From Planctomycetota bacterium (GTDB lineage: Bacteria; Planctomycetota; Planctomycetia; Pirellulales; UBA1268), in the NCBI GenBank assembly GCA_016872555.1, contig VGZO01000012.1, positions 1-64,000 on the forward strand: DNA of 64,000 nt, in the 5' to 3' direction. Position numbers and translations under genes: made by a program. A model generated the notes under the pieces. That model ran no database searches, was not told where the DNA came from, and was given only the letters and a program-made list of their open reading frames with translations. Each line of letters begins with the position of its first letter. Within the stretch, counting starts at the first letter, position 1. This document shows positions 12,083-51,598 of the stretch, in pieces.

Positions 12083-12311
12083 CAGCCGGCGAAGGTTCCC
12101 CAAGTCGCCGGACCGCTCAGCCTGACCAAGGTGCCCCCCGCTGACGCGGCGGATCGGTCGGGGTGGGCAGGAGGGGGACTGATCTGGTTCCACGCACCGG
12201 TCCACTGTAGGGTTCCCGCGCTTCACGGTCGGGCATGGTCGCTCCCGCTGCCGAAGTGCGGGTGCGACCGGCTCCCGCGCCATCGTGTTCCATCGGTGTC
12301 ATTGTTCGCCC

Positions 12312-13058
12312 ATGACGACTCCACCGCCAACCGACCGCACCGTCCCCCGCGCCCCCCCCGCCGCGCGCCGGTGGGCGCTGGTGCTCGGTTTCGTGGCCGT
12401 TTTCGCTTCCGCGGTCGGCTGCTCCGGCAACCGCTCGGGGGGGCCGTCGTGGCCCTGGCGCGACCGCGAGAAGGAACGCCGTCTCGCCGAGAAATACGGC
12501 ACGACCGCCAAGCAGCGGATCGAGACGCTCCATGCCGACGCGAAACAGGCCCAGGCCGCCGGGGCGGAACGGCAGATCGCCTTCACCGAGTCGCTGGCAC
12601 GGCGGATCCTCGAGGAGCACGACCCGCGCGTCCGCTGCGAGATCGTGGCGACCGCCGGTTCGTTCGACACCCCGGCGGCGGCGGCCATCTGCCGCGGGGC
12701 GCTGCAGGACCCCGAGCCGCGGGTGCGGAGCCAGGCCTGCGACACCTGGCGGGAGCGCGGCGGGCCTGATGCGGTGGCGCTGCTCACCGCCCGCTACCGC
12801 GCCGACACCGATCTCGACGTCCGGCTCCGCGCGCTGCGGATGCTCGGTGAACTGAAGGACAAGGGGGCGATCCCGACGCTTGCCGAGGCCCTCGAGAATC
12901 CCGATCCTGCCGTCCAGTACCGGGCCGTCGCCGCCCTCAAGCAGGTCAGCGGCCGCGACCTCGGCAACGACGTGAACGCCTGGCGCGAGTGGGCCACCGA
13001 CCCGGAAGCCCAGCGATCCGAGGTCACACTCGCCGAACGGCTGCGCGTGCTTTTCTGA
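12312..13058 (+). CDS. HEAT-repeat lipoprotein
   Basis: 248 residues from the ATG at 12312 (a longer ORF begins 27 bases earlier). The N-terminus is a basic region followed by a hydrophobic core and a lipobox-like FASAVGC, so the mature protein is probably lipid-anchored. After a charged linker (WPWRDREKERRLAEKYG) come HEAT-type helical repeats from about residue 75 to 235 (EEHDPRVRCEIVATAGSFD, QDPEPRVRSQACDTWRERGG, DTDLDVRLRALRMLGELKDK, ENPDPAVQYRAVAALKQVSG). HEAT solenoids mediate protein-protein contacts. The structured repeat element begins 4 bases after its stop codon. Confidence 0.8.
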   Translation: MTTPPPTDRTVPRAPPAARRWALVLGFVAVFASAVGCSGNRSGGPSWPWRDREKERRLAEKYGTTAKQRIETLHADAKQAQAAGAERQIAFTESLARRILEEHDPRVRCEIVATAGSFDTPAAAAICRGALQDPEPRVRSQACDTWRERGGPDAVALLTARYRADTDLDVRLRALRMLGELKDKGAIPTLAEALENPDPAVQYRAVAALKQVSGRDLGNDVNAWREWATDPEAQRSEVTLAERLRVLF

Positions 13059-13062
13059 ATAT

Positions 13063-13183
13063 CGCGCCCGCGGGGCCATCCATGGCCCCCGCGGGCTTAC
13101 GCAGGCGGAGGGAACGCCAAGGGTTCCCTCGCCTGCGGCGGTCGCACCTCCGGGCGACCGTGGCCGCCGCCAGTGGCGGCGGC
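13063..13183 (+). repeat. Structured intergenic repeat, copy 1 (multi-hairpin)
   Basis: This ~121 bp element is repeated at 26222-26336. It folds on paper into four consecutive hairpins: a GCCCGCGG-type stem closed over CC (about 13066-13096), a variable stem at 13101-13136 (GCAGGC(G)GAGGGAAC pairing with GTTCCCTCGCCTGC, one bulged G), a CGGTCGC/GCGACCG stem (about 13139-13160), and GCCGCCGCC-AGT-GGCGGCGGC (13163-13183). It starts exactly 4 bases after the stop codon of the upstream plus-strand gene, as does copy 2. It lacks a U-run, so it is not a textbook terminator. It may act in transcript end formation or mRNA stability. Confidence 0.85.
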
Positions 13184-13590
13184 GGGGGCGCGCTGGGTGA
13201 ACAACGACCGGCGTGGAGGGGCTGCCCATGCCCCGGGAGCCGGCGTTCAGGCGACGAGCGGAGCCATGGATGGCGAAGCGAAGTCGTCTGCGAGCGAGCG
13301 GAGGCATTGCCGAGGGAGCCAGGCTTCGCCTGGCGACCGCAAGCCTGAGCCGACGCCGGGACGGCGGCGACGGCTCTTCAGTTGATTCCCTCGAGCCCGC
13401 AGGGGCAGTGCTTGCGGACGACTGACCGCGACCGGAATCGCCTGCCGAGCCGTCTGTGCGCGGTTGGCAAGCTGGCGAAGCTGAGTCGAGAACCGGCTTC
13501 CTGACAACGATCCATGACAGCGGCGGGCCGATATCGCCAGCACCGAATCATCCGTCCCTGGGCCACGTGGCCGGAAACCCCGAGACACTC
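13184..13590. other. Intergenic region downstream of repeat copy 1
   Basis: About 400 bp with no convincing gene. It contains a perfect 7 bp hairpin (GCCAGGC-TTC-GCCTGGC, 13318-13334) inside a purine-rich GCGAGCGAGCGGAGGC context that reads like degenerate repeat filler. The frame of the next gene is open leftward to a GTG at 13456, but the predicted sequence there lacks a signal-peptide or domain character. No clear -35/-10 pair was found. Confidence 0.5.
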
Positions 13591-24801: not shown

Positions 24802-26217
24802 ATGCGATGCCAAGTGTTCCGTCTGCCGCGTCTGGTCGCGGCGGGCATCCTCTCGGCCGGCCTGGCCGCCGGCGTGGCACCCGGCCAGGGGGTCGTGCCG
24901 GTCGTCCCCAACGTGCCCCAGGAGGAGGCCTACGAGCTCCGCGGCCTGCCGCCGCAGGAGGCCGCCCAGGAAGCGGGCGAGGAGGGGCCCAACCGGTACC
25001 TCGAGTTCGAGCCGCTCGCGAGCCGTGGCCTGAAGACATACGGCTGGATCGACGCCGGGATCGGCGCCAACAACTGGGGCGCCCCCTGGAACGGGCCGAT
25101 CACGTTCAACGACCGCAATTGGCAGGGCCAGGTCAACCAGCTGTACCTCGTCAACGAGAAGCTCCTCGATCTCGAAGACGGCGGCTTCGACTGGGGTGGG
25201 CGCGTCGATCTGCTGTACGGCACCGACTACATCTACACCACCGCCCGTGGCCTCGACGCCAACCTGCTCAACCAGCCGATCGCGGCCTCGCCGTCGTGGG
25301 GCAACCGCTATTACGGCCTCGCCCTGCCGCAGATGTACGGTGAGCTCGGCTACGGCAACAACGCCGTCAAGTTCGGGCACTTCTACACGATCATCGGGTA
25401 CGAGGTCGTCCCGGCGATCGGCAACTTCTTCTACACGCACGCCTACACGATGCAGTACGGCGAGCCGTTCACCCACACCGGCATCCTCGACACCTGGACG
25501 CCCAACGACCAGACGACGGTCTATGCCGGTATCACCAACGGCTGGGACAATTACAGCGACCCGATCAACATCGTCGGGATCGCCAACCCGGGCTATCCGG
25601 GCGCCAACAGCAACGCGGCGTTCCTCGGCGGCGTGTCGTTCAAGGATCCCGACGAGACCCAGACGCTGACGATTACCACATCGAGCGGCAACGAGCCCGC
25701 ATCGCTGCTCTCACCCGCGCCGATCGGCAATCGCTCGATCCTCAGCACGGTCTACGTCAACGAATTGTCGGACAAGGTGACGTACGTGTTCCAGAACGAC
25801 AACGGCTGGCAGTTCAGCGCCGTCGGCGTGCCGTCGGTGCTCGGGCAGCAGGCCAATCTGGCGCAGTGGTACGGCATCAACCAGTACCTGTTCTACAACA
25901 TCAGCGACACCCTCGTGGCCGGCACCAGGCTCGAGTGGTTCCGCGACAACAACGGCTACCGTGTCGTGTCGGGGCTCCGCAACGCCCTGTTCGGGGTGCC
26001 GCAGGGTCCGGGCAACTGGAACGGCGGATTCCAGGGCAACTTCTGGCAGGCCACCTTCGGGCTCAACTGGAAGCCGAACCGCAACTTCATCATGCGGCCG
26101 GAGCTGCGCTACGACTGGTACTCGCCTGACCACGGCAAGGGCCCGCTTCCCTTCGGACGCAACTTCAACGAGTACGGCCAGCTCTACGGCGGCTGTGACG
26201 CGATCTGGCAGTTTTGA
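24802..26217 (+). CDS. Outer-membrane beta-barrel protein (BBP2/OmpL-like porin)
   Basis: About 471 residues from the ATG at 24802, with GGATGGAG upstream and a signal peptide (LPRLVAAGILSAGLAAGVA). The frame is open further left but without signal character. After a short Pro/Gln/Glu-rich stretch (VVPNVPQEEAYELRGLPPQE) the protein is a run of alternating aromatic/polar strands with many Gly, Asn and Tyr: GWIDAGIGANNWGAPW, DWGGRVDLLYGTDYIYT, FGHFYTIIGYEVVPA, VYAGITNGWDNYSDPI, GTRLEWFRDNNGYRV, PELRYDWYSPD. The C-terminal residue is Phe, as required by the outer-membrane insertion signal. This fits putative beta-barrel porin-2 proteins common in planctomycetes. Repeat copy 2 starts 4 bases after the stop. 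Confidence 0.85.
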   Translation: MRCQVFRLPRLVAAGILSAGLAAGVAPGQGVVPVVPNVPQEEAYELRGLPPQEAAQEAGEEGPNRYLEFEPLASRGLKTYGWIDAGIGANNWGAPWNGPITFNDRNWQGQVNQLYLVNEKLLDLEDGGFDWGGRVDLLYGTDYIYTTARGLDANLLNQPIAASPSWGNRYYGLALPQMYGELGYGNNAVKFGHFYTIIGYEVVPAIGNFFYTHAYTMQYGEPFTHTGILDTWTPNDQTTVYAGITNGWDNYSDPINIVGIANPGYPGANSNAAFLGGVSFKDPDETQTLTITTSSGNEPASLLSPAPIGNRSILSTVYVNELSDKVTYVFQNDNGWQFSAVGVPSVLGQQANLAQWYGINQYLFYNISDTLVAGTRLEWFRDNNGYRVVSGLRNALFGVPQGPGNWNGGFQGNFWQATFGLNWKPNRNFIMRPELRYDWYSPDHGKGPLPFGRNFNEYGQLYGGCDAIWQF

Positions 26218-26221
26218 CTTT

Positions 26222-26336
26222 CGCGCCCGCCATCCATGGCCCCCGCGGGCTTACGCAGGCCAGGGACACGGGAAGTGTCCCTGGCCTGCGGCGGTCGCAC
26301 CTCCGGGCGACCGTGGCCGCCGCCAGTGGCGGCGGC
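26222..26336 (+). repeat. Structured intergenic repeat, copy 2 (multi-hairpin)
   Basis: Same orientation and same 4-base offset from the upstream stop codon as copy 1. The first hairpin is truncated on its left arm. The variable hairpin is a perfect 15 bp stem with loop GGGAA (26255-26269 pairing with 26275-26289). Relative to copy 1 both arms differ in sequence but still pair, i.e. compensatory change. The CGGTCGC/GCGACCG and GCCGCCGCC-AGT-GGCGGCGGC hairpins are identical to copy 1. Confidence 0.87.
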
Positions 26337-26419
26337 CACGGCGCGACGGACAGCGCGTGGTCAGCCGCGGCAGTACGATGCTGCCCGCGGTTGACCCACA
26401 CGGTGCCGGAGGCCATGCC

Positions 26420-36016: not shown

Positions 36017-36185
36017 GGGAGCGTCCGGTATCCGCCCGCGCGAGCGCGCCAGGCGGGGGGTGGGAAATAGCGGTCCGGCGCCAGGGGATCAAGGCGAACC
36101 GCGTTCCCCGGGGCCACCCGCGTTCCCGTCAGCCCGCGGACAAAGTGATCGGCAGCCGGATGCGGCCGACGGCGACCCGGGGATT

Positions 36186-36270
36186 GGCCGAGGCGGGGAT
36201 CGAACCCGCACGGAGATCACTCTCCACGGGATTTTAAGTCCCGTGCGTCTGCCAGTTTCGCCACTCGGCC
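36186..36270 (-). tRNA. tRNA-Leu (anticodon UAA)
   Basis: Read on the minus strand, the 7 bp acceptor stem GGCCGAG/CTCGGCC is perfect. The D-arm (GTGGCGAAACTGGCAGACGC) is followed by anticodon stem CGGGA/TCCCG with loop CTTAAAA, giving anticodon TAA. A long variable arm (TGGAGAGTGATCTCCG) marks a class II tRNA, and the T-arm GCGGGTTCGATCCCCGC is canonical. CCA is not encoded. Length 85. Confidence 0.97.
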
Positions 36271-51269: not shown

Positions 51270-51540
51270 GAAAAATCGCCTCGTCAGGGGTTCGGCCGTG
51301 GGGTGGCGGGCGGTCGATCGGCTCGGGATGGCGCTTGCGGCCTGGCTTTCATGCGACCGCCGGGATTGTGAGGAAGGCCCGGCAACCGGTTCAAGCGACA
51401 GGCTCCCGGCCCGACGATTGGGCCGGTGGGTGCCAATCCGGCGTCATCCACGCACGAGCAGCTCATGAAAAAAGTCGTCGGCCGCCGGACGCGGCCGATG
51501 GCGACCCGGGAAACCCCCGGCGTTTCCCGCGGTCGCCTGA

Positions 51541-51571
51541 GTGGACAAAGGCCACGGAGGGCTTTGTCCAC
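51541..51571. other. 10 bp inverted repeat upstream of respiratory locus
   Basis: GTGGACAAAG (51541-51550) and CTTTGTCCAC (51562-51571) are perfect complements with an 11-base loop. It lies in the 567 bp region between purD and the Rieske gene, upstream of the predicted promoter. It may be an operator or a transcript hairpin. The rest of 51270-51540 shows no gene I can support. Confidence 0.55.
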
Positions 51572-51598
51572 GGACAGCCAGGATCCCCGGGGAAAACA

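Follow-up and report, generated by a model that had tools for sequence, protein, structure and literature searches.

Copy 1 of an intergenic multi-hairpin repeat in the window, as the whole 64,000-nt stretch of Planctomycetota DNA analysed here is called, probably belongs to a high-copy, lineage-restricted and non-coding family of structured, MITE-like mobile DNA elements, in which the hairpins are likely to serve as folded DNA. Two forms of the element are distinguished by their leaders: type B, the commoner one, carries a CTGTCC-like leader, and type A combines hairpins common with type B with a T-rich leader and often occurs in tandem arrays. This division is post hoc, made after the abutment of copies on stop codons had been noticed. 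Conservation of the paired structure among copies is strongly supported, and type B is mobile.

Copies in the window and conservation of the hairpins

The first-pass annotation had described the repeat as two copies, at 13063-13183 and 26222-26336. Both are present in the window with the second-stem arms that it quoted: GAGGGAAC/GTTCCCTC at 13108-13130 in copy 1 and the counterpart CAGGGACAC/GTGTCCCTG in copy 2. Both copies fold far better than their dinucleotide shuffles (z of -5.4 and -7.5; 0 of 200 shuffles in each case), and the third hairpin, which is common to them, has no further occurrence in the window (mean expected by chance 0.09). The limits given for copy 1 were too tight, as the copy starts directly 3' of the TGA of the upstream gene and may be closed near 13192 by an outer stem, CGCGCC/GGCGCG. 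Its fourth hairpin is found in the window copies and their nearest relatives and lies outside the general model of the element. Conservation of the other stems in sequence, also claimed, fails at stem 1: with 5 nt lost from its left arm, this stem pairs only incompletely in copy 2. Hairpin 2 of copy 2 is devoid of the bulged G and the GCC[AG]AGG loop of the repeat family, and copies 1 and 2 by themselves are therefore poorly suited to demonstrate covariation. Both are of type A; a third copy in the window, on the minus strand, is of type B (Table 1).

Table 1. Features of the element copies in the window
Feature	Positions	Strand	Details
TGA stop codon	13056-13058	+	end of the upstream gene (ORF 12285-13058), immediately before copy 1
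Copy 1, leader	13059-13065	+	type A, ATATCGC
Copy 1, hairpin 1	13066-13096	+	apex GCCATCCATGGC, unpaired C on 3' side
Copy 1, hairpin 2	13100-13137	+	bulged G, loop GCCAAGG
Copy 1, hairpin 3	13140-13159	+	
Copy 1, hairpin 4	13163-13183	+	extra hairpin
Copy 2	26215-26341	+	TGA 26215-26217, leader, hairpin 1, hairpin 2 (26254-26290), hairpin 3 (26293-26312), hairpin 4
Copy 3	51459-51577	-	type B, 119 nt, flanking 4-mers CTGG and CTCG, orthologous copy in sister species G001

A second dispersed repeat (CGTGGAGGGGCTGCCCATGCCCC ... GCCATGGATGGCGAAGCGAAG) adjoins copy 1 at 13207-13310; the apex GCCATCCATGGC recurs in it on the minus strand, and the repeat is found elsewhere in the genome both with and without the hairpin element.

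A covariance model of the three hairpins was built from 21 copies, and further copies were collected by model searches and from fetched stretches. Among 69 distinct copies, 95.7% of the stem cells pair, compared to at most 54% when the partners are slid, and 448 cells are changed on both sides versus approximately 110 after shuffling. As the alignment of the 69 copies was fitted to the model, it is biased toward structure; an unfitted alignment of 21 copies gives the same result, with 112 double-changed cells versus 31. Several features are near-constant: in hairpin 1, the apex GCC[AC]TCCATGGC and an unpaired C in the 3' arm; in hairpin 2, a bulged G in the 5' arm and the loop GCC[AG]AGG; and in hairpin 3, ATCC. 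The leaders CTGTCCG and TTTNNCG are conserved.

If a transcript of the element were selected, G-U should be tolerated above A-C. The counts of G-U and A-C in three alignments are 34/42, 28/26 and 46/89, and for type A of the first alignment, restricted to hairpins 1 and 2, 7 G-U are found against 13 A-C out of 1,060. Since G-U is no commoner than A-C, selection on element-strand RNA is not favoured. This result alone is no proof of folded DNA, because copying from arm to arm would avoid G-U as well. A tRNA baseline (G-U in 3 of 69 pairs, from only three tRNAs) was left out of the comparison.

Orthologous copies in the own genome of the window (G000) and in a sister species (G001) indicate how the structure fares after insertion. 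Eleven pairs were treated as type B, including one (on C78) with a type-A leader in G000 and a type-B leader in G001; they display 28 single-sided stem changes and four double paired ones, of which three fall in one rearranged hairpin 3. Three type-A pairs, a small sample, display one single and one double change, the latter a compensated exchange of G-C for C-G. The G001 alignment at C13:70251 was ambiguous and was excluded. As the changes in the type-B orthologues are mostly uncompensated, the structure seems to be kept in spreading copies and not at most type-B addresses. The first-pass annotation had taken the compensatory change between copies 1 and 2 as an argument for selection on RNA or cruciform structure: the structural part of this claim holds in the larger set of copies, whereas its RNA half is not favoured by the G-U counts and the mainly uncompensated type-B changes.

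Distribution and mobility of type B

In G000 the model has at least 128 matches at E<=0.1, with no more than 150 candidates scored, and the fetched loci of this genome contain 112 matches at E<=0.001, which sets a lower bound on the number of copies. The suggested covariance-model search of the genome and its relatives thus turned up at least 112 copies here; within the family it matched 23 of 24 genomes, and none of 15 genomes that represent other families of the order. Two findings had been named in advance as speaking against the first-pass reading, namely a total of two copies in the genome or arms that have lost their pairing; the copy number is far above two and the arms still pair. The sister species G001, the assembly of which is 69% complete, has over 90 copies. 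Among 199 genomes drawn from the phylum under stricter filters, the own genome is the sole match, and when GTDB, with each species represented by one genome, was scanned with an exact pattern, only Planctomycetota MAGs were matched. An exact-pattern scan of IMG/VR yielded no match, and neither did phages, plasmids and viral contigs yield a match to the element.

Several G000 contigs (C9, C15, C23, C52, C58, C70, C76, C81, C95) have element copies or tandem arrays at their ends. The element probably fragments the assembly, and since copies are located in tandem arrays and at contig ends, their true number is probably higher than counted. In two other genera (loci L294 and L300), PPDK has a similar leader, CTTCACG, behind its stop codon, together with sequence resembling hairpins that escapes the model; such elements may therefore form a broader group than the model recognises.

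The mobility of the repeat had escaped the first-pass annotation and is revealed, for type B, by target duplications. Among the 70 type-B copies whose 3' end could be recognised, 56 have exactly 119 nt between the flanking 4-mers. The 4-mers on both sides are identical in 20 of the 70 copies and non-identical in the remaining 50, some of the 70 being G000/G001 orthologues and hence not fully independent; the permutation mean is 5.8 and the maximum in 20,000 shuffles is 18, and the 4-bp target duplication is therefore real. The commonest duplicated 4-mer is CTAG, and TTAA, CCAG, GTAG and TCAC pairs match too. The terminal inverted repeats of type B, CTGTCCGTGG (5') and CCACGGGCTG (3'), are imperfect. 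Type B thus exhibits the features of a MITE, being short, non-coding and high-copy, with terminal inverted repeats and a target duplication of fixed length.

Comparisons of sites point in the same direction. One site is filled in G000 and element-less in G001, although it is not a clean reversal. The C-termini of PPDK and SOD vary little within the family and are followed by a stop codon, with the modelled element behind PPDK only in G000 and G001 and behind SOD only in G000. A related hairpin element disrupts an IS91-like Y2 transposase gene in three genera, each time at the same position (L345, L360 and L353 in G006, G016 and G012, respectively).

Several candidates for a mobilising enzyme were sought, and none of the transposase families covered could be assigned this part. 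RAYT (Y1_Tnp) has no match in G000-G003, which are all four genomes of the genus (G000 is 98% complete). DDE_Tnp_1 (PF01609) is absent from G000 and G001, and DDE_Tnp_1_2 (PF13586) from the whole family, G000 included; an IS4/IS5-type DDE partner was rejected on the grounds that both are absent from G000. Y2_Tnp (IS91-like) is present, with many fragments, in 17 of the family's 24 genomes, as against 2 of 15 genomes belonging to other families within the order; G001 has no Y2 match in its 69% complete assembly despite its many element copies. A search for a larger autonomous element by means of the 3'-end pattern gave 21 matches versus 17 for the control, that is, not above control.

Type A and stop codons

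In this genus, type A differs from type B in its position relative to genes. No 3' terminal inverted repeat was recognised in type A, and a target duplication was sought and none was found. Adjacency to stop codons is expected for about one third of the insertions, because the target is CT-rich and gene-breaking insertions are lost; in 428 kb of G000 and G001, 32% of the noncoding CTGA/CTAG/CTAA sites are real gene stops. By hand-made counts, 18 of 50 type-B copies (either end) and 25 of 35 type-A copies, or 22 of 35 under strict gene criteria, lie behind stops. Under a mechanical rule, which leaves out array-internal units and considers 5' ends only, the numbers in G000 are 27 of 33 for type A and 12 of 47 for type B. 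The same rule applied to G001 yields 7 of 9 and 14 of 41 (Fisher p=0.025), three type-A orthologues being shared with G000. In other genera, the two types do not differ (type A 12 of 23, type B 8 of 16), the null being calibrated on G000 and G001 only.

The type-A bias toward stop codons is thus solid in G000, weakly repeated in G001 and not found beyond. Targeting of stop codons by type B was rejected, as its adjacency equals chance given the 32% of stop sites. That copies always follow stop codons, a point suggested for checking, is accordingly false for type B and holds mostly, rather than always, for type A of this genus only. Type B occurs in both orientations; the type-A copies behind stops are in sense orientation in this genus. 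Among the genes upstream of the element are SOD, PII, PPDK and other conserved genes whose C-termini look natural, and the element therefore follows the gene end rather than supplying it.

Possible mechanisms and relation to known repeats

These observations are probably best accommodated in the following manner: Type B is a 119-nt MITE with three tandem hairpins between imperfect inverted repeats, inserted with a 4-bp, often CTAG, target duplication. It must be moved in trans by an enzyme, presumably a DDE transposase, as the target duplication suggests. Among spreading copies, the hairpins, apices and bulges are maintained by compensated changes, most likely because the folded element DNA takes part in mobilisation or replication; resident type-B copies drift after insertion, as seen in the orthologous pairs. 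Type A of this genus lies directly behind stops beyond what the target preference predicts, perhaps through a different mode of insertion or through retention as a 3'-UTR structure. A cut-and-paste MITE, however, needs no internal hairpins, and this step leaves their conservation unexplained. It is conceivable, if unlikely, that an undescribed transposition machinery recognises the internal hairpins in their folded DNA form and makes the 4-bp duplication, with type A directed to, or domesticated at, stop codons.

Selection at the level of RNA competes with the MITE-like reading: the element would act in cis within the 3' UTR, as a terminator of transcription or a shield for the 3' end of the upstream mRNA, and every copy would be under selection as RNA at its own site. 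The very stable folds, the covariation, the sense orientation of type A directly behind stop codons in this genus and the compensated change between orthologous type-A copies would all fit. Nevertheless, this explanation is unlikely, as G-U does not exceed A-C even in type A, type B lies behind stops at chance level and in either orientation, and the orthologous genes of most genera are element-less. Moreover, no Rfam family matches the element at its gathering score; two weak matches are far below, the best match to a copy being RsmW with 26 bits versus a gathering score of 52. An RNA gene or riboswitch was rejected on the grounds of the missing Rfam match above gathering score and of the missing G-U preference. 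Across the window, the only Rfam match above gathering score is to tRNA, an ordinary gene on the minus strand at 36185-36270 (RF00005, 57 bits). Alternatively, the arms might be kept alike by arm-to-arm copying, i.e., template switching or quasi-palindrome correction, with no selection for structure. Double changes indeed far exceed G-U intermediates, as expected if both arms change together; such copying should, however, erase bulges, yet hairpin 1 almost always retains its unpaired C and hairpin 2 its bulged G, the apices are nearly constant too, and uncompensated changes remain uncorrected in orthologous type-B copies, rendering this mechanism quite improbable.

Two known modes of spread have also been considered for the element in place of a MITE-like one. 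A REP/BIME moved by a RAYT (Y1) transposase could account for the high copy number, the bulged extragenic hairpins and the closeness to stop codons, and GTAG-tagged REPs, the ends of which often supply TAG stops, have been reported from the PVC superphylum (PMC3733652). The lack of Y1_Tnp in the four genomes of the genus, including the nearly complete G000, and the 4-bp target duplication of type B make this very improbable. Hardly any weight is given to an origin of the copies from IS91-like (Y2) rolling-circle elements, whether as their passengers or as their ends. The distribution of Y2_Tnp over the families would suit this origin, and rolling-circle transfer could yield tandem arrays, but the more complete Y2 loci have no model match, and where matches occur, they lie inserted in Y2 fragments or next to them. 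Type B also makes a target duplication, for which IS91-type elements are not known, and G001 has abundant copies and no Y2 match, though in an assembly of 69% completeness only.

Strong covariation is commonly taken to prove that an RNA is functional; the repeat that shows it here is mobile DNA and has no preference for G-U. Searches for RNA motifs thereby gain a warning and a simple test, namely the comparison of G-U with A-C. The copies furthermore provide a natural series of hairpins with fixed bulges for studying folded DNA in transposition, and the insertions behind stop codons are a test set for effects on mRNA 3' ends. No description of the repeat family was found in the open-access literature, most subscription papers being outside this coverage.

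Integron attC sites, which were also considered, appear to differ from the present element, where the apices are constant and the stems vary. Three groups of repeats are closer to it: (i) the MITEs RUP, Correia/NEMIS and ERIC are likewise approximately 100-200 bp long, non-coding and high-copy, with inverted repeats, a target duplication and strong folding, and RUP also inserts into IS genes, as does the relative of the element; bacterial MITEs are, however, mostly AT-rich with TA at their ends, these three among them (PMC2229807), whereas the present element is GC-rich, has a 4-bp CTAG-like target, contains three covarying hairpins whose bulges are fixed, and has no parent IS identified so far; (ii) REP/BIME are high-copy extragenic hairpins, clustered and often located beside coding regions and stop codons, but REPs measure 20-40 bp, carry a GTAG or CGTC tag and are associated with RAYT, in contrast to a 119-nt unit with a target duplication in a genus without RAYT (PMC3733652, PMC2817692); (iii) the Caulobacter CIR repeats are intergenic and partly MITE-like, and in them RNA-like stem-loops and an exposed loop motif are both conserved; as described, they consist of two arms with a GANTC loop motif and no stated target duplication, and their sequence differs from that of the present element (PMC2229807). 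The element appears to represent a new, apparently undescribed family of structured, MITE-like repeats restricted to one bacterial family, known in kind and unusual in its conserved internal hairpins.
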